A stretch of DNA of 64,000 nucleotides from Maritimibacter harenae (GTDB lineage Bacteria; Pseudomonadota; Alphaproteobacteria; Rhodobacterales; Rhodobacteraceae): assembly GCF_009882975.1 (NCBI RefSeq), contig NZ_WTUX01000019.1, forward strand, positions 566,446 to 630,445, read 5' to 3'. This document shows, piece by piece, positions 35,889-51,844 of this stretch; within the stretch, counting starts at the first letter, position 1; every line of letters starts with the position of its first letter. Below the pieces are notes generated by a model. The model saw only the letters and a program-made list of their open reading frames with translations, was not told where the DNA came from and ran no database searches. A program made the translations under genes and the position numbers.

Positions 35889-37124
35889 ATGGCCGACGAT
35901 CTCTTCAATTCCTTCATGAACGGTCCCGACGAAAAGGGCCGGTTCGGCGATTTCGGCGGGCGTTTCGTGTCCGAAACCCTGATGCCGCTCATTCTCGAGC
36001 TCGAGGCGGAATACGAGAAGGCGAAAACCGACCAGAGCTTCTGGGACGAAATGGACTTCCTGTGGAAGCACTACGTGGGCCGTCCCAGCCCGCTCTACTT
36101 CGCCGAGCGGCTGACCGAGCAGCTGGGCGGTGCGAAGATCTATCTCAAGCGTGACGAACTCAACCACACTGGCGCGCACAAGATCAACAACGTGCTGGGC
36201 CAGATCCTGCTGGCGCGCCGGATGGGCAAGGAACGCATCATCGCCGAAACCGGCGCCGGCCAGCACGGCGTGGCGACCGCCACGGTCTGCGCCAAGTTCG
36301 GGCTGAAGTGCATCGTCTACATGGGCGCGCACGACGTCGAACGGCAGGCCCCGAACGTGTTCCGCATGAAGCTCCTGGGCGCCGAGGTGGTGCCCGTGAC
36401 GTCCGGGCGCGGGACGCTCAAGGACGCGATGAACGACGCGCTGCGCGACTGGGTGACCAACGTGCGCGACACGTTCTACTGCATCGGCACGGTCGCCGGG
36501 CCGCACCCGTACCCGGCGATGGTGCGCGACTTCCAGTCGATCATCGGCACCGAGGCCAAGGCCCAGATGCAGGAGGCCGAAGGCCGTCTGCCCGATACGC
36601 TGATCGCCGCCATCGGGGGCGGGTCCAACGCGATGGGCCTGTTCTACCCGTTCCTCGACGACAAGGATGTGCACATCATCGGGGTCGAGGCCGGCGGCAA
36701 AGGCGTGAACGAGAAGATGGAACACTGCGCCTCGCTCACCGGCGGACGTCCGGGCGTGCTGCACGGCAACCGCACCTACCTGCTCCAGGACGACGACGGG
36801 CAGATCCTCGAAGGGCACTCGATCTCGGCGGGGCTGGATTACCCGGGGATCGGGCCGGAACATTCCTGGCTGCACGACATCGGGCGCGCGGAATACGTGT
36901 CGATCACCGACAAGGAAGCGCTCGAGGGCTTCCAGCTCCTGTGCGAGACCGAGGGCATCATCCCGGCGCTGGAGCCGTCCCACGCGCTGGGCCACGTGAT
37001 GAAGATCGCCGGCGACCTGCCCAAGGATCACATCATCTGCATGAACATGTGCGGGCGCGGCGACAAGGACATCTTCACGGTGGCCAAGGCGCTGGGCACC
37101 GACATGTCAGGGCTCGCGGACTGA
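35889..37124 (+). CDS. trpB: Tryptophan synthase beta chain
   Basis: A 411-residue PLP enzyme that condenses indole and serine. PLP lysine in [12 protein letters not shown]; glycine-rich phosphate loop GGGSNAMG. The trpF-trpB pair is split here by other genes, so trpB probably has its own promoter in the 35736-35888 gap. A weak hairpin (37133-37157, CGGCGCCG arms) follows. Confidence 0.97.
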
Positions 37125-37202
37125 TCCGAAAACGGCGCCGCCCAGGGGACGGCGCCGCTTCATCGGCTTTACGGGTCGCTCAGGGCGACTGATCGTTTCC
37201 AA

Positions 37203-38225
37203 TCACTGGAGCGACGTGGAGGTATCCACTTCCGCGTTCGCGTCGACCTCGGCGCCAGCGGCCGCATCGGTGCCGCTGTCCGTCGGGGTGTCGACATCGG
37301 CGCTGGCGTTGCCGTCGACACTGGCGTTGCCATCGACGCTGGTGGTCGTTTCGTCGTCCGCTGCCGCGTCAGCTTCGGTCTCAACGTCGGCATTCGGGTC
37401 GACGTCCGCCCCACCGGCGGCGTCGTCCGTGCCGCTCTCCGTCGGGGTGTCGACGTCCGCACTGGCGTTGCCGTTCGCCTCGCCTGACGCATTGGTATCG
37501 GTTCCGGCGTCGGTACCCGCATCAGTGCCGGCATCCGCATCGGTTCCGGCATCCGCGCCGGCGTCAGCACCGGCATCGGCGCCTGCGTTGGCATCGGTGT
37601 CGGTCCCACCGTCGGTACCGGTGTCAGTGCCCGCATCGGTGTCGGTCCCACCATCGGTGCCGGCGTCAGTGCCCGCATCGGTATCGGTTCCGGCATCCGC
37701 GCCAGCGTCAGCACCAGCATCGGCACCAGCGTCGGCGTCCGTGTCGGTCCCGCCGTCGGTGCCGGCATCAGTGCCAGCATCGGCACCGGCGTCAGCCCCG
37801 GCGTCCGCGTCGGTGTCGCCGTTCGTGGAGTCACCGTCGCTTCCGCCGTCGGACTGAGCGCCCGAGTCGGAACTGGTCTGGACTCCGCCCTCGTCGGCGA
37901 AGGCGCCCGAGGCCGCGGCCGCTGTGACGTCCTCACCCATGTCGAGACTGACGGTTTCGTTGACGTCGATACAGGCGGCCAGCTCGTCGGAGAGCACGCT
38001 TCCGGCCTCGCCGAGCTTCAGGATGCGACCACGTTGTTCGTCGCAGCCATAGAAGGTCAGTGCGCCCGTGGAATACAGGCGGACCGCTTCGATGGTGTAG
38101 CCGTCGGACCGGAGTTCGGTCACGCCCTTCGCATAGACGTCTTCGTTCAGCGTCTGCGAAAAGGCCGGCGCCGCAAGGGCGAGAGCCGCAGCGGAGGCGA
38201 GGGGAAGGGTTGCGAAATTGCGCAT
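37203..38225 (-). CDS. Exported acidic-repeat protein, paralogue A
   Basis: A 340-residue exported protein. Signal peptide to about residue 23, then a globular domain (residues about 24-95: VYAKGVTELRSDGYTIEAVR, GRILKLGEAGSVLSDELAACID) shared with the next two genes. After it about 215 residues are almost only Asp, Ala, Gly and Thr (DAGADAGTD-type repeats), then a second acidic section rich in Val/Asn/Glu. Very low pI expected. A disordered or cation-binding surface protein is likely; the globular part resembles a PepSY-type fold. Function unknown. Confidence 0.75.
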   Translation of the reverse strand: MRNFATLPLASAAALALAAPAFSQTLNEDVYAKGVTELRSDGYTIEAVRLYSTGALTFYGCDEQRGRILKLGEAGSVLSDELAACIDVNETVSLDMGEDVTAAAASGAFADEGGVQTSSDSGAQSDGGSDGDSTNGDTDADAGADAGADAGTDAGTDGGTDTDADAGADAGADAGADAGTDTDAGTDAGTDGGTDTDAGTDTGTDGGTDTDANAGADAGADAGADAGTDADAGTDAGTDAGTDTNASGEANGNASADVDTPTESGTDDAAGGADVDPNADVETEADAAADDETTTSVDGNASVDGNASADVDTPTDSGTDAAAGAEVDANAEVDTSTSLQ

Positions 38226-38341
38226 GGTTCATTCCTTTCAATGCAGAACGAGAGCGGGATGCGATCGCAAATCCCATCATTGAGAAGTGGGGCACACCGT
38301 CTCGTGTCTGCTTGGTGAATGAGGCCTCGCGCAACTTTGTT

Positions 38342-38363
38342 CCAAATATTCCATTCTATTTGG
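38342..38363. promoter_or_regulatory. Inverted repeat upstream of paralogue A
   Basis: CCAAATA-N8-TATTTGG, 7-bp perfect arms in an AT-rich pocket 117 bp upstream of paralogue A. A possible operator or promoter element. The remainder of 38226-38467 shows nothing further. Confidence 0.35.
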
Positions 38364-38467
38364 CAATTCTTTAATCACTCCGGGCCTCGCGCGGGACGGG
38401 CGCACGTGCGCGGCCTTTATCGTTTAAAAACAACAAATTGTGCGTCTGTCCGCTTGAGGCCCGCCGC

Positions 38468-38502
38468 ACAAAAAAGAGGCGCCGCGATCCGCGGCGCCTC
38501 TT
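38468..38502 (-). terminator. Terminator of paralogue B
   Basis: Arms AAGAGGCGCCGCG / CGCGGCGCCTCTT (13 bp, 3-nt loop). On the minus strand it is followed by a T-run (complement of the A-run at 38468-38475), 19 bp past the stop of paralogue B. Confidence 0.85.
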
Positions 38503-38520
38503 CGTGAACGGACGGACGCA

Positions 38521-39051
38521 TCAGCTGTCGCTGTCGGCCGAGATGCCGAGGTCAACCCCCGCATCGATGCCAAGCGACGCGCTGTCGTCGCCATCGTCGC
38601 CGTCGGCCTCGATACCGATCGAGGTGTCCGAGCCGATGTTGACGGACGCAGAACTTTCGTCATCCGTGCCGTCATTTTCGCCATCCGCCTCGACATCAAT
38701 TCCGGTGTCGGCGCCGACCATGACAGAGGCTTCGCCGTCGTCATTATCTTCGCCTTCGAACTCGATCCGGGTGGAGGCGTCCAGGTCGGTCATGGTGTCG
38801 GACACGACATCGCCGTCGTCGTCCATGATCAGGATGCGGCCGTTGGTTTCATTGCGCGCCATGAAGGTCAGGCTGCCTTCGTCATCCTGGCGCACGGTTT
38901 CCACGTCGTAGCCGTCGCCGGTCAGCTCGGCCATGCCTTCGGCATAGACCTCCTGGTTCAGTTCGGCGCGGGCGTCGTCCTGCGCCAGGGCCGTGACGGC
39001 CGGCGTGGTGGCGAGAAGGGCGATCGCGGTCATGCTGGCAAAGCGTTTCAT
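38521..39051 (-). CDS. Exported protein, paralogue B
   Basis: A 176-residue exported protein (ATG at 39051, signal peptide to about residue 23). Its globular domain (VYAEGMAELTGDGYDVETVR, GRILIMDDDGDVVSDTMTDLD) aligns with paralogues A and C. The C-terminal about 80 residues are an acidic repeat of a different kind (GADTGIDVEADGE, GSDTSIGIEADG, GIDAGVDLGISAD). Monocistronic, with its own terminator. Confidence 0.75.
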   Translation of the reverse strand: MKRFASMTAIALLATTPAVTALAQDDARAELNQEVYAEGMAELTGDGYDVETVRQDDEGSLTFMARNETNGRILIMDDDGDVVSDTMTDLDASTRIEFEGEDNDDGEASVMVGADTGIDVEADGENDGTDDESSASVNIGSDTSIGIEADGDDGDDSASLGIDAGVDLGISADSDS

Positions 39052-39293
39052 GGTATCTCTCCTTTTGTCTTCGACCCCGTGTCCGGGGCGGCGCCGCGGG
39101 ATCGGCCACCGGATCGCATCGGTCGGCATGACCGGATGAGGGTGGCGCCTCGGACGCTGTGACCGGGCAACCCGCGCCGGACGCCCCCAGTTCCGGCCGG
39201 GAGCCAAAACACATTGTGACGATCCGAGGGGCAGTTTTCTGAAACTTTTCAGGGACTTCATTCGTGTTCGCGCGCGCGGGAAGTGACCTGATG

Positions 39294-39326
39294 AAAACGA
39301 CCGGCGCCGCGGGCCGCGGCGCCGGT
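39294..39326 (-). terminator. Terminator of paralogue C
   Basis: 13-bp arms ACCGGCGCCGCGG / CCGCGGCGCCGGT with a 1-nt centre. On the minus strand CGTTTTC follows. The rest of the B-C gap (39052-39293) shows no further feature. Confidence 0.8.
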
Positions 39327-39349
39327 CGATGGCATGGGTGAGGTGGTTC

Positions 39350-39688
39350 TCAGCGGGCCTGGGCGGTCCGTACCGGCAGGGGCTTCAGCGTGCCATTGTC
39401 CAGCGCATGCATCGCCTCGTCCGAAAATACGTCCCAGCGCTCGACCCTTTCGTCGCGCAGGACGGCGCCGGCGCTGTCCAGCACGAGGACGCGGCCGACC
39501 GCGTTGTCGGCGGCGAAGAACTGATGCTCTCCGTTGCGCTTGATGCGGATCGAGATGACGTCGAACCCGTCACCGGACAGGACGCGGACCCCGTCGCGCT
39601 GCACCGCGTCGGTGTCGGCCAGTACCGGGGCAGGGCCTGCAAGCGCGAGCCCGAGGATGAAGGTTTTGAAGATATTACGCACGACCAA
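39350..39688 (-). CDS. Exported protein, paralogue C
   Basis: A 112-residue exported protein (signal peptide to about residue 24). The domain VRVLSGDGFDVISIRIKRNG, GRVLVLDSAGAVLRDERVERWD matches paralogues A and B. It has no acidic repeat tail, only about 25 residues (ALDNGTLKPLPVRTAQAR). It is the short member of the tandem set. Confidence 0.72.
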   Translation of the reverse strand: MVVRNIFKTFILGLALAGPAPVLADTDAVQRDGVRVLSGDGFDVISIRIKRNGEHQFFAADNAVGRVLVLDSAGAVLRDERVERWDVFSDEAMHALDNGTLKPLPVRTAQAR

Positions 39689-39780: not shown

Positions 39781-40155
39781 TCAGAGCGCGTATTGCTTGA
39801 GGATGCGCAGCGGCACGACCTCGAGCGCACGGCCATGCGTGGCCTCCAGCCGGACCTTGGGCGCGCAGCCTTCGTCATGGGCCTGGAGGAAGCGCGCGGC
39901 GCACAGGCACCACTGGTCGCCCGCCCGCAGGCCCGGGAAGTCGAACTCCGGGCGCGGGGTCGACAGGTCGTTGCCGACGTATTTCGAGTAGGCGAGGAAC
40001 TCGTCCGTCATGACGGCGCAGACGGTGTGGTTGCCGCGATCGGCGTCGCAGGTGTTGCAGTATCCGTCGCGGAAATACCCCGTCGTCGGATCGTCTGAGC
40101 AGGACAGGAGGGTTCCGCCAAGGACGTTGATCGGCTCAATCGGTTCGGGCTTCAT
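39781..40155 (-). CDS. DUF2237 family protein
   Basis: A 124-residue protein with the DUF2237 signature (NVLGGTLLSCSDDPTTGYFRDGYCNTC; NDLSTPRPEFDFPGLRAGDQWCLCA). Conserved cysteines suggest a metal or redox site. It starts inside the end of the serine hydrolase gene (20-bp overlap). Function unknown. Confidence 0.9.
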   Translation of the reverse strand: MKPEPIEPINVLGGTLLSCSDDPTTGYFRDGYCNTCDADRGNHTVCAVMTDEFLAYSKYVGNDLSTPRPEFDFPGLRAGDQWCLCAARFLQAHDEGCAPKVRLEATHGRALEVVPLRILKQYAL

Positions 40156-47860: not shown

Positions 47861-48406
47861 TCAGGCGGGCAGTCCGCCGTCGTCCGCCGTGTTGTCGGCT
47901 GGCGCCGTCACCGTCCAGACCTCGCGCGCGCCCTCGGCGGGCGCGGAGGTCACGGTGAGGTTCGCGGCCCGCAGGAAGTTCATCACGTCCTCGACGATTT
48001 CCTCCGGTGCATCCTCGGCCCGGCCGATGGGGATCGGGCGGCGCACCTCGCGCTTGCCGGCCGGAAAGAGCGTCAGCGTCTCGTAGGTGCCGCTGCCCCG
48101 CCGTTCGACACGCACCACGCGCGACCACGGCAGCATGATGTGAACGCCGACCTGCGCGCCCTCGTCGGTGAGGCGGGCGAGCCTGCGGCGCATGTGGGTT
48201 TCGCTGAGCCCGACCCAGCCCAGCATGATGCCGATCAGCACGGGCACGACGCTGATCACCCCGACCGGCTTCGTCCAGAGCAGGGCGATGTCATCGGCCG
48301 CGAGCCGCGCCATGAGCACGCCTCCGAGCACCAGGAACGCCAGGCCCAGCCAGCGCATGGTGCGAAACGACGGCGGGGCCGCGTAGATCTCGCGCTCTTT
48401 CGTCAT
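47861..48406 (-). CDS. Hypothetical membrane protein
   Basis: A 181-residue protein with two hydrophobic segments (about 18-36, 48-66) and a soluble C-terminal domain (VHIMLPWSRVVRVERRGSG). It overlaps the nadE stop by 4 bp (ATGA), so it is co-translated downstream of nadE. The soluble part has PH-domain-like character. Function unknown. Confidence 0.7.
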   Translation of the reverse strand: MTKEREIYAAPPSFRTMRWLGLAFLVLGGVLMARLAADDIALLWTKPVGVISVVPVLIGIMLGWVGLSETHMRRRLARLTDEGAQVGVHIMLPWSRVVRVERRGSGTYETLTLFPAGKREVRRPIPIGRAEDAPEEIVEDVMNFLRAANLTVTSAPAEGAREVWTVTAPADNTADDGGLPA

Positions 48407-50070
48407 GTCTTGTCCCGCCAGCGGTTCACGATGGGATAGCGCCGGTCGAGCCAGAAGCTGCGCATGGTGAGCCGCGCGCCCGGCGCGGCCTGGAAGCGCT
48501 TGTATTCCGAGATGAAGATCAGGTGCTCCACCTTTTTCACCGTCTCCCGATCGTAGCCCTGCGCCACCAGTTCGGCGACGGAATGCTCCTTGTCCACCAA
48601 CCCTTCTAGGATGCCGTCGAGGATCTCGTAAGGTGGCAGGCTGTCGCTGTCCTGCTGATCCTCGCGCAGCTCCGCGCTGGGCGGCTTGTCGATGATCGAG
48701 GTCGGGATCACCTCGCCCGGCGGGCCCATCATCCAGTCACGGTGATTGGCATTGCGCCAGCGGCAGGTCTCGAAGACCCGCATCTTGTAGAGATCCTTGA
48801 TCGGGTTGTAGCCGCCCGCCATGTCGCCGTAGATCGTCGCATAGCCCACCGCCACCTCGGACTTGTTGCCGGTGGTGAGCAGCATTTCCCCGAACTTGTT
48901 GGACATCGCCATGAGGAGCAGGCCGCGCAGGCGCGATTGGATGTTCTCCTCCGTGAGGTCGGGCGCGTAGCCTTCGAACAGGGGGGCGAGCGTTTCGGTG
49001 ACCGCGTCGCGCGGGCCGGTGATCGGCACGAAGTCGTAGTGACAGCCCAGGTTCTCGGCCACCGCCTTCGCGTCGTCGAGCGACCCCTGGCTGGTGTATT
49101 CCGAGGGCAGCATCACGCAGCGCACGTTCTCGGGCCCCAGCGCGTCGGCGGCGATGGTCGCGACGATCGCGCTGTCGATGCCCCCCGACAGGCCCAGCAG
49201 CACCTTCCGGAAGCCCGTCTTGCCCATGTAGTCGCGCAGCGATTGCACCATGACGCGGTAATCGGCCTCGTAGGCCGGCCGCGCGGGGACCACGTCGCCG
49301 GGCACGATCGTCCACCCGTCGTCGCCCTTCTGGAGGTCGATGTGCCGGATCACCTCGTCGAATTCCGGGAACTGGAAGGCGAGCTCGCCCTGCGTGTCGA
49401 GCCCGAAGCTGGCGCCGTCGAAGACCTGGTCGTCCTGCCCGCCCACCATGTTGAGGTAGATGAGGGGAAGCCCGGTCTCCTCGACCCGCGCGCGCATCAC
49501 GCCGTGGCGGGTCTCGACCTTGCCGCGGTAATAGGGCGACCCATTCGGCACGGCGAGCACCTCGGCCCCCTTGCGCGCCAGGTCCTCGCAGACCGCCTCC
49601 GGCCACCAGGCGTCTTCGCAGACGGGGATGCCCAGCATGAGCGGACCGACCTTCACCGGTTCCTGCGGCGGGGCGTGGGCGAAGAGGCGCTTTTCGTCGA
49701 ACACCGTCTCGTTCGGCAGCATCTGCTTGAGGATGTGGCCGCGCACCCGGCCGCCTTCGAGAATCCAGTAAGCGTTGTAGAGGTCGCGCCCGTCGTGGAA
49801 CGGGCACCCCATGCCGATCGCCGGACCGTCGGCGCAATCGGCCGCCAGCGCCTCGCAGACCTCCATCGCCTCGGCCCAGAAGGCCGGGCGCATCACCAGG
49901 TCCTGCGGCTGGTAGCCGATGAGGAAGCTCTCGGTGAACATGATCATGTCCGCGCCCGCATCGCGCGCCTGCGCCCAGGCGGCGCGCGCCCGGTCGGCGT
50001 TGCCGGGAATGTCGCCCACGGTCGGGTTGAGCTGTGCCAGCGTCAGGCGAAAGGTCTCGGTCATCGTCAT
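48403..50070 (-). CDS. nadE: Glutamine-hydrolysing NAD+ synthase
   Basis: A 555-residue two-domain enzyme. The N-terminal nitrilase-type glutaminase contains FTESFLIGYQ, LPNETVFDEKR and GIPVCEDAWW (Glu, Lys, Cys). The C-terminal NAD synthetase carries the PP-loop LLGLSGGIDSAIVA. It forms NAD from deamido-NAD with glutamine as the nitrogen source. Start at 50070 or, six bases later, 50064. Confidence 0.96.
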   Translation of the reverse strand: MTMTETFRLTLAQLNPTVGDIPGNADRARAAWAQARDAGADMIMFTESFLIGYQPQDLVMRPAFWAEAMEVCEALAADCADGPAIGMGCPFHDGRDLYNAYWILEGGRVRGHILKQMLPNETVFDEKRLFAHAPPQEPVKVGPLMLGIPVCEDAWWPEAVCEDLARKGAEVLAVPNGSPYYRGKVETRHGVMRARVEETGLPLIYLNMVGGQDDQVFDGASFGLDTQGELAFQFPEFDEVIRHIDLQKGDDGWTIVPGDVVPARPAYEADYRVMVQSLRDYMGKTGFRKVLLGLSGGIDSAIVATIAADALGPENVRCVMLPSEYTSQGSLDDAKAVAENLGCHYDFVPITGPRDAVTETLAPLFEGYAPDLTEENIQSRLRGLLLMAMSNKFGEMLLTTGNKSEVAVGYATIYGDMAGGYNPIKDLYKMRVFETCRWRNANHRDWMMGPPGEVIPTSIIDKPPSAELREDQQDSDSLPPYEILDGILEGLVDKEHSVAELVAQGYDRETVKKVEHLIFISEYKRFQAAPGARLTMRSFWLDRRYPIVNRWRDKT

Positions 50071-50212
50071 CCTCGCGTTACGCCGGACTGTTTAGCAGGT
50101 TCATGGGCAGACAAAAGCCGGGTGCCGTCTTTGTCATAGGAAAAGAATTGTGTCGCGTGGCCTCGTTGCTTAGGTTTCGGACACTTCGGAAAAAATCGAC
50201 CAAGAGGTCCCC

Positions 50213-51844
50213 ATGTCACGCACCCTGCGTCTTGTCGTTCCCATCGCCGCGACCCTTCTCGCGGGCGGCGCTTTTGCGCAAGAGGCGGTCGAGACGATGC
50301 AATACGACGACGGGCGCGTTTACGAGGGCACCTTCAAGGATGGCCAGCCCCACGGCCAGGGCACCCTGCGCACGCCGTCGGGCTACGAATACACCGGCAC
50401 CTTCGTGAACGGCGAGATCCGGGGCGAGGGCGTCGCGCGCTTCCCCAACGGATCGGTCTACGAGGGCAATTTCGCTGCCGGCAAGCCGCACGGGTTCGGC
50501 AAGATCACCTTCGCCGACGGGTCGAGCTTCGAGGGGGACTGGGTCGACGGGAAGATCACCGGCACGGGCCTGGCCGAATACGCCAACGGCGTCGTCTACG
50601 AAGGCGGGCTGCGCGAGGCGATGCATCACGGCAAGGGCCGGATGGAGAGCCCTTCGGGCTTCATCTACGACGGCGACTGGAACATGGGCCAGAAGGACGG
50701 GCAGGGGCAGGCGACCTATGCCGACGGCTCGGTCTACGAAGGCGGTTTCCAGGACGACGAACGGCATGGCCAGGGCGTCTATGTCGGCGCGGACGGCATG
50801 CGCTACGAAGGCGAATGGGTCGACGGCCAGATGCACGGCAATGGCCGGCTCGAACAGGCCAACGGTGACGTCTACCAGGGCCAGTTCGTGGAAGGTCAGC
50901 GTTCGGGCCAGGGCAAGGTCACCTATGCCAGCGGCGACGTCTACACCGGCGCGTTCCTGAACGATCAACGCAACGGGCAGGGCGTCTTCGAGGGTGAGGA
51001 CGGCTATCGCTACGACGGCAACTGGGTCGACGGCCAGATCGAGGGTCAGGGCACCGTCACCTATCCCGACGGCTCGGTCTACGAAGGCATGTTCCGCGCC
51101 GGGCTGCCGGACGGGCAGGGCACGATCACCTATCCCGACGGCGGCACGTATACCGGTGACTGGCGCGACGGCGTGATCGAGGGCATGGGGCGCGCGACCT
51201 ATCCCAACGGCTCGACCTACGAAGGCGGCTTCGTCTCCGCGCTCTTCGAGGGCGAGGGGACGCTCACCTTCGCCGAGGGCCACGGCTATTCCGGCGGATG
51301 GGAGAAGGGCAAGCGCCACGGCCAGGGACGCGAGGAATACGCGGATGGGTCGGTTTACGAAGGCGGCTGGATCGAGGGCAAGCGACAGGGCGACGGCACG
51401 CTCACGCTGGCCGACGGGTTCACTTACACCGGCGAGTGGCTCAACGGCATGAAGCACGGCATGGGCAAGGCGACCTACGCCAACGGCGATGTCTACGACG
51501 GCCAGTTCGCCAACGACCAGCGTAACGGCCAGGGGACGGTGATCTACGCGTCCGGCGAGACGGTATCGGGCGAATGGGTGAACGGCGTCATGGAATCGAT
51601 GCTCGAGGGCGGCACGCCGGCCCCGCTGGTCCCCGCCGCGACGGATGAAACGGTGGACGAGGCGCCGGCGCCCTCAGAAGCGCCCGAAGAGGACACCCAG
51701 CCGGTGGTCGAGGAGGCGCCCGCGCCGGACGAAGCTCCGGCGGAAACGCCGGCCCCGGAACCGGCCGCCGACCCGGAGCCCACGCGGGTGCCCGAAGGGC
51801 TGGCCGATCCGGATGCGTCGCTGGGGTCCGGCGGTCTCTACTGA
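50213..51844 (+). CDS. Exported MORN-repeat protein
   Basis: A 543-residue protein: signal peptide (to about residue 23), then 18 consecutive 23-residue MORN repeats (roughly residues 31-444, consensus DGSVYEGEW..G..HGQGT.TY) plus a partial nineteenth. An acidic Pro/Ala/Glu-rich tail of about 80 residues ends in LGSGGLY. MORN repeats form an elongated beta-hairpin stack that binds lipid or protein. An outer-membrane or periplasmic scaffold is plausible. No neighbour suggests a partner. Confidence 0.85.
   Translation: MSRTLRLVVPIAATLLAGGAFAQEAVETMQYDDGRVYEGTFKDGQPHGQGTLRTPSGYEYTGTFVNGEIRGEGVARFPNGSVYEGNFAAGKPHGFGKITFADGSSFEGDWVDGKITGTGLAEYANGVVYEGGLREAMHHGKGRMESPSGFIYDGDWNMGQKDGQGQATYADGSVYEGGFQDDERHGQGVYVGADGMRYEGEWVDGQMHGNGRLEQANGDVYQGQFVEGQRSGQGKVTYASGDVYTGAFLNDQRNGQGVFEGEDGYRYDGNWVDGQIEGQGTVTYPDGSVYEGMFRAGLPDGQGTITYPDGGTYTGDWRDGVIEGMGRATYPNGSTYEGGFVSALFEGEGTLTFAEGHGYSGGWEKGKRHGQGREEYADGSVYEGGWIEGKRQGDGTLTLADGFTYTGEWLNGMKHGMGKATYANGDVYDGQFANDQRNGQGTVIYASGETVSGEWVNGVMESMLEGGTPAPLVPAATDETVDEAPAPSEAPEEDTQPVVEEAPAPDEAPAETPAPEPAADPEPTRVPEGLADPDASLGSGGLY

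Follow-up and report, generated by a model that had tools for sequence, protein, structure and literature searches.

Tandem PepSY_2-type genes with diverging tails in Maritimibacter harenae, and their relatives beside a membrane LuxR-type regulator

Why should a bacterium keep, side by side, three genes for apparently exported proteins that share one domain and end in tails of very different length? The question arises at a locus of Maritimibacter harenae (Rhodobacteraceae) within a 64,000-nucleotide stretch of contig NZ_WTUX01000019.1 (positions 566,446 to 630,445 of the forward strand; hereafter the window, whose numbering we use). Here three separate genes, A, B and C, lie on the minus strand between a gene matching Pfam PALP, which we take to be trpB, and a gene for a DUF2237 protein (Table 1). 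An initial annotation made from the sequence alone had their coordinates, strand and order right. We find that A, B and C make up a tandem family of Maritimibacter with a PepSY_2-type domain and signal-peptide-like starts (judged by eye), kept beside trpB. Beyond the genus, the array is closest to small PepSY-like proteins, most of them with acidic tails, whose genes lie directly upstream of one for a LuxR-type regulator.

The shared domain, put at about 55-70 residues in the initial annotation, is real and about 60 residues long. Smith-Waterman scores for the domain were 136 (A-B), 93 (A-C) and 94 (B-C), against shuffle means of 21.6-25.4 and a shuffle maximum of 51, and for no pair was the score reached by any of 5000 shuffles. 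The N-terminal 98 residues of B (signal peptide plus domain), searched against the whole 4.25 Mb genome, recovered A (3.4e-13) and C (8.6e-6), the next-best matches being weak (0.07 and 0.47). A profile search with the domain, a step proposed along with the annotation, placed B above the cut-off of Pfam PepSY_2 (PF13670), with 25.5 bits for a cut-off of 24.3 (26.4 bits in the genome search); its M. alkaliphilus orthologue falls just below, at 22.5 bits. A new domain family is thereby rejected, and the annotation's remark that it did not know this as a described family stands only to the extent that PepSY_2 is functionally vague. A and C, which are not among the four PF13670 matches (E <= 1) of their own genome, are assigned to the family through their homology to B. 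The domain of A has two cysteines, and two are also present in the A-type genes of M. alkaliphilus HTCC2654 (genome G001) and M. dapengensis DP4N28-5 (G002).

Compared as profiles, the array matched the LuxR-linked PepSY-like proteins described below at 96.9% (1.4e-10), and these matched canonical PepSY_2 at 95.7% (8.8e-9). Structure prediction, also foreseen by the annotation, was run on B with AlphaFold2 and gave a confident domain (residues ~31-92, predicted local distance difference test score, pLDDT, ~90) of a helix followed by four strands. PepSY-type chains were among the matches of this model in the second of two structural comparisons, all of them weak (UipA, 7ath, Z 6.3; a lipoprotein, 4exr, Z 6.9; vibriolysin, 3nqz, Z 5.5), and since unrelated folds appeared at equal Z, a PepSY fold is compatible with B rather than proven. 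By sequence, the array profile found no solved structure (best E 0.22), and the canonical PepSY_2 profile found weak matches, the best being a PepSY peptidase M4 propeptide (0.0023). The array is like other small exported PepSY_2 proteins in domain profile (for B), signal-peptide-like start, shortness of the domain and, in the model, a helix with an antiparallel sheet; it is unlike them in the long acidic low-complexity tails of A and B and in being a tandem array without a peptidase.

We surveyed the locus in eight Maritimibacter genomes, that of the window (G000) included. The array lies at the same place, between trpB and the DUF2237 gene, in six of the eight, with two to four paralogues in each. 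Read from the trpB side, with paralogue letters of our own (A, A2, B, C, D), the window has A-B-C, G001 and G002 have D-A-B, G004 (a Maritimibacter metagenome-assembled genome) has D-B, G007 has D-B-A2-C and G003 has B-A2-C. B is present in all six, its N-terminal part 64-78% identical to that of window B in the other five, and it gave no plasmid matches. Window A reaches 51% domain identity to its nearest relative (the A gene of G001), and their tails are unlike; tails vary among the relatives in general, some being rich in glycine and serine instead of acidic. A tail-less gene stands beside the DUF2237 gene in G003 and G007, the position of window C, which suggests that C is their counterpart. 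The domain tree has C nearest to the C gene of G003 (40% identity), yet does not group it with the tail-less genes of G003 and G007; with 2 of its 19 inner branches starred, this short-domain tree cannot settle orthology. The array is a genus-level variant, its domain being known; the local duplication of an exported PepSY-like domain with later tail evolution that the annotation proposed agrees with the relatives, in which the array keeps its place but differs in its tails and in the number of paralogues.

Beyond the view of the annotation lay the gene context of the array's nearest relatives. In four of the genomes (G001, G002, G004 and G007) a trio adjoins the array, lying between it and trpB on the opposite strand: two acid-tailed PepSY-like genes, F and E, and a LuxR-type gene, which scores 25.9 bits against Pfam GerE (cut-off 23.5) and in whose product an alignment, judged by eye, shows two apparent membrane helices. 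The window genome's own regulator has no Pfam match at E <= 1e-5, and its M. alkaliphilus orthologue matches GerE at 7.8e-6. The regulator was found at E <= 1e-8 in 74 of 120 family genomes, with no plasmid matches. From more than 100 matches we took the best 29 new loci, all in other Rhodobacteraceae genera (L082-L110; weaker matches are not included), and every one had a PepSY-like gene. Together with six genus trios this gives 35 loci, in all of which the PepSY-like gene is upstream and co-directional; a median of 49 nt separates the last PepSY gene from the aligned start of the regulator, and the tail of that last PepSY protein has a net charge of -10 or lower in 26 of the 35. Of the 15 domains that went into the PepSY profile behind these counts, some came from L065, L066, L067, L069, L073 and L077, so that of the 14 of 14 positive genus rows (13 places) only eight are independent, while L082-L110 all are. 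Its reversed-sequence control gave 0 of 45 loci, and on the 647 open reading frames of the window it returned A, B and C plus one false match (48406-50091, E 2e-4).

The association also holds from the side of the array. A profile made from A, B and C only, run on 295 family genomes, gave 17 places in other genomes that were also searched for the regulator (tables compared by hand, with own-genome and G001 rows excluded), and at 13 of these the regulator lay on the same contig within 0.9 kb; one of the remaining four (G102:C10) is at a contig end. In an overlapping set, the 28 non-genus loci from this profile (L033-L060), a regulator was present at 18, and several of the ten loci lacking one in the examined stretch are short matches inside long unrelated reading frames. 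Some of the loci with a regulator belong to the second form of pairing, with canonical PepSY_2 proteins, that is set out below. Outside the family the pairing is weaker: a PepSY-like gene stood at 7 of 14 regulator places (the same-family L117 and L121 excluded), two of the seven matches having E values near that of the false match in the window.

Several further observations on PepSY-like and LuxR-type genes came to light in these searches. The window genome has its own F-E-LuxR trio (L068, G000:C51:694545-698024), away from the array and with a TAAAC palindrome upstream. In many Rhodobacteraceae genera, PepSY-like proteins encoded next to a membrane LuxR gene have extreme poly-Asp/Glu tails (e.g. 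L083, L097, L101 and L110). A second form of pairing has a canonical PepSY_2-like gene near a membrane LuxR gene (L005, L072, L075-L077, L111, L113, L115-L117); by eye, the regulator loop in this form often reads H...E, and in the acid-tailed form often W...E. At L005 the gene between the PepSY_2 and LuxR genes is presumably cytochrome b561-like. In the window genome, L004 (G000:C70) has a PepSY-like gene with a G/S/V-rich tail beside a membrane LuxR gene and another membrane protein gene, which we assume to be YqhA-like. The best match of the array profile outside the genus (L033, G211:C10; 6.2e-6) joins a PepSY-like domain to a very long tail of GGTGSGG type, with no LuxR gene within the examined stretch. 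Finally, the NCBIfam family LIC13292 (NF047608) matches the C-terminal half of the M. alkaliphilus regulator (L079) with 57 bits for a cut-off of 200, and may be a distant relative.

The palindrome, TAAAC-N4-GTTTA, is a putative operator. It was first noticed in five Maritimibacter trios, which are therefore no test of its recurrence. Of 59 regulator loci, 24 contain it (0.05 hits expected from shuffles): all 6 genus trios have it, as do 18 of 29 loci from other genera, but none of 8 further genus rows and none of 16 loci from a class-wide search. When the 600 bp before the first PepSY domain were examined, it was found at 21 of 35 loci (15 of 29 when the genus is set aside) and its backward control at 0 of 35, and for some of these loci the upstream stretch was short (1-62 bp in L086 and L082). 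In the window's own genome the pattern occurs once, at the trio promoter, and the backward control also occurs once; the number alone thus means nothing, and it is position and recurrence that carry weight.

How does this arrangement compare with known systems? In the ToxR/ToxS type a membrane transcription factor has a small periplasmic partner, and the pairing described here is like it in joining a membrane-anchored DNA-binding protein to a small exported protein encoded beside it; it is unlike it in the LuxR/GerE-type domain, the ~15-residue loop between the two helices and the PepSY-like partners. The widespread PepSY domains have no clear role as yet: metal binding and protease inhibition have been proposed, and one such domain is shown to control a sensor kinase. 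According to PMC12714742, Vibrio cholerae secretes a small PepSY protein, DbfQ, which binds to the sensor domain of the kinase DbfS, and small PepSY genes lie near two-component genes more than 60 times more often than chance. The relatives of the array resemble this DbfQRS system in being small PepSY genes, often as a consecutive pair, next to a gene for membrane signalling, and in the repeated neighbourhood association; unlike DbfQ, which pairs with a histidine kinase and response regulator, they have as partner a one-piece LuxR-type regulator with two apparent helices, and the array itself is without a sensor gene among the window neighbours scanned. The Coriobacteriia regulators DadR, CadR and HcdR of PMC9734109 are likewise membrane proteins with a C-terminal LuxR-type DNA-binding domain (regulators of this 10-12-helix kind also appear in PMC11585353), and membrane LuxR regulators are thus a kind already described; those differ, however, in having 10-12 helices and in responding to the substrates of neighbouring enzymes, the present regulator showing two apparent helices and being flanked by PepSY-like genes. 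The word LuxR is absent from PMC12714742, and PepSY is mentioned neither in PMC9734109 (0 occurrences) nor in PMC11585353; the only paper found to name both PepSY and the LuxR family is PMC3377617, in separate gene tables. No paper linking PepSY to a LuxR-type regulator was found in keyword searches of the open-licence PMC literature.

From their anatomy (signal-like starts, a small folded domain, an acidic tail) and from the company of their nearest relatives we infer, as the best reading though one that is tentative and falls short of probable, that A-C are extra periplasmic PepSY accessory proteins, DbfQ-like, derived from a PepSY/membrane-LuxR module. The folded domain would be a protein-interaction module acting in the periplasm, and the acidic tail might bind cations or polycations or be a solubilising spacer. 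In the parent module PepSY proteins would set the activity of the membrane regulator, which would control its own operon through the palindrome. The array genes would be extra versions, separately transcribed, and might be kept because tails of different length and chemistry tune signal catching or the restraint of the same or another membrane partner, as DbfQ restrains the kinase DbfS. A broader proposal, which we consider doubtful, is that Rhodobacteraceae have an undescribed one-component envelope-sensing module of which the Maritimibacter array is the PepSY part with interchangeable tuning tails; exported acid-tailed PepSY proteins would switch the two-helix membrane LuxR regulator, this regulator would govern its own operon with TAAAC-N4-GTTTA as operator, and the array tails, from none to 250 acidic residues, would act as interchangeable signal-catching or tuning elements. 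If true, the combination of PepSY protein, small membrane LuxR-type regulator and candidate operator would carry the DbfQ finding beyond two-component kinases, to membrane regulators made of one piece. The pairing is also a compact system for testing.

A number of results weigh against the accessory-protein reading. At the level of the domain, Pfam gave no match for either A or C at E <= 10, the direct profile comparison of the array with canonical PepSY_2 is weak (35%, 3.9e-4), and Foldseek found no match to the B model at E <= 0.001. At the level of the locus, no membrane LuxR-type regulator was matched in the window and the array adjoins no regulator here, the genome's trio being at C51:696045; G003 has the array with no trio found, and G005 (81% complete) the trio with no array found. 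Neither the window nor the array promoters of those relatives that were checked contain the palindrome, and the array as its direct target was rejected for want of a site in the window. As for the tails, 9 of the 35 LuxR-linked ones are weakly acidic (net above -10), and the inter-helix loop of the regulator is short (~15 residues) and in most cases not basic (over 60 rows the net charge averages -1.6), so that acid tails could not simply dock there by electrostatic attraction; such an interaction with a basic loop was rejected accordingly, the loops of the six Maritimibacter trios having net charges of 0 to +2.

The tails themselves diverge much as first annotated. That of A, given as about 240 residues, has 252 (22% D, 23% A, 17% G, 15% T; net charge -66), that of B, given as about 80, has 82 (23% D, 10% E; net -26), and the near absence of a tail in C corresponds to 23 residues of net charge 0; with a single domain and three such tails in one genome, the array is a natural series. 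The acidic tails are probably disordered; in the B model the tail has pLDDT below 50. Similarity of the A tail to the staphylococcal adhesin models ClfA, ClfB, SdrC and SdrD looks compositional (30.7-39 bits for cut-offs of 999-2500) and was set aside, as was a stable beta-solenoid in the B tail, where the model of M. alkaliphilus B draws strands at a pLDDT of ~40 that is not usable. The charges of the tails would also suit secreted or periplasmic cation-binding buffers working without a regulator, in which acid tails take up Ca2+, iron, other metals or cationic peptides and the PepSY domain is an anchor or metal site. The tails of A and B and the strongly acidic majority among the LuxR-linked relatives favour this explanation, together with reported metal binding by PepSY domains (UipA, cited in PMC12714742) and the spacing of the array genes, each with its own terminator-like hairpin. 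We nonetheless judge it unlikely, for C has no tail and its tail-less counterpart is kept in G003 and G007, some relatives' tails are G/S-rich rather than acid, and the repeated pairing of such a domain with a membrane regulator is left unexplained.

Near-neutral birth and death of a low-value exported family, its tails growing by DNA slippage with no dedicated role, would account for the DNA tandem repeats that code the A tail (Table 1) and for the variation of tails and paralogue number among relatives. It sits poorly with the retention of B in six of the eight genomes at the identity given above and with the similarity of an element upstream of B in several relatives, and we think it decidedly unlikely. 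That the domain acts like a peptidase propeptide and inhibits a secreted protease is very improbable, for although Pfam names PepSY_2 'Peptidase propeptide and YPEB domain' and an autoprocessed vibriolysin structure is among the weak structural matches (Z 5.5), Pfam found no peptidase domain in A-C, a peptidase is the best match of none of the eight neighbours scanned (a tannase/esterase has a weaker Peptidase_S9 match), and the relatives' gene context favours regulators.

When the stretch after each stop codon was folded against 200 shuffles, it folded better than all 200 for A, B and C alike, in line with the claim that each gene has its own terminator; a simple consensus terminator scan found the hairpin of C only. 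A, B and C appear to be transcribed apart, and the hairpin after A may serve trpB too. Elements similar to the one upstream of B precede the B gene of three relatives and two of the D paralogues, and the pattern has two matches in the genome, one of them at B, with 0 for the backward control. As for RNA elements, the array gave just a sub-threshold Rfam match (20.7 bits, gathering 60). The start of C is most plausibly GTG at 39682 rather than TTG at 39688, as AAAGGA, read by eye, stands ~7 nt before the GTG.

Table 1. Features of the array and its flanks, in window coordinates
Feature	Position	Strand	Description
trpB, presumed (Pfam PALP)	35889..37124	+	left neighbour of array, conserved
Terminator-like hairpin 3' of A	37125..37180	-	z -3.4; between convergent A and trpB
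Gene A	37203..38225	-	340 residues; signal-peptide-like start, PepSY-like domain (~residues 25-88), acidic tail
Further 18-bp repeat	37295-37342	-	within gene A
DNA tandem repeats	37488..37815	-	units of 12, 18, 24, 30, 42, 102 and 144 bp in overlapping rows; code middle of A tail
Terminator-like hairpin and T run 3' of B	38450..38520	-	z -4.4
Gene B	38521..39051	-	176 residues; signal-peptide-like start, PepSY_2 domain, 82-residue acidic tail with imperfect repeats
Element upstream of B	39114..39142	-	CCCTCAT, 13-17 bases, ATGCGA; genome C59:605559-605587
Terminator-like hairpin 3' of C	39285..39345	-	z -5.8
Gene C	39350..39682	-	110 residues; signal-peptide-like start, domain as in A and B, nearly tail-less
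DUF2237 protein gene	39781..40155	-	right neighbour of array, conserved

Eight neighbours of the array in the window were scanned, three of them on the left (one short of four), with matches to GNAT, a tannase/esterase, PALP (the presumed trpB), DUF2237, a beta-lactamase fold, Pth, a methyltransferase and L25; no histidine kinase or response regulator is among the eight. Elsewhere in the window, at 50213-51844 on the plus strand, a 543-residue protein with a signal-like start has many repeats of GxYEGxWxxGxxxGxG type, MORN-like by eye.

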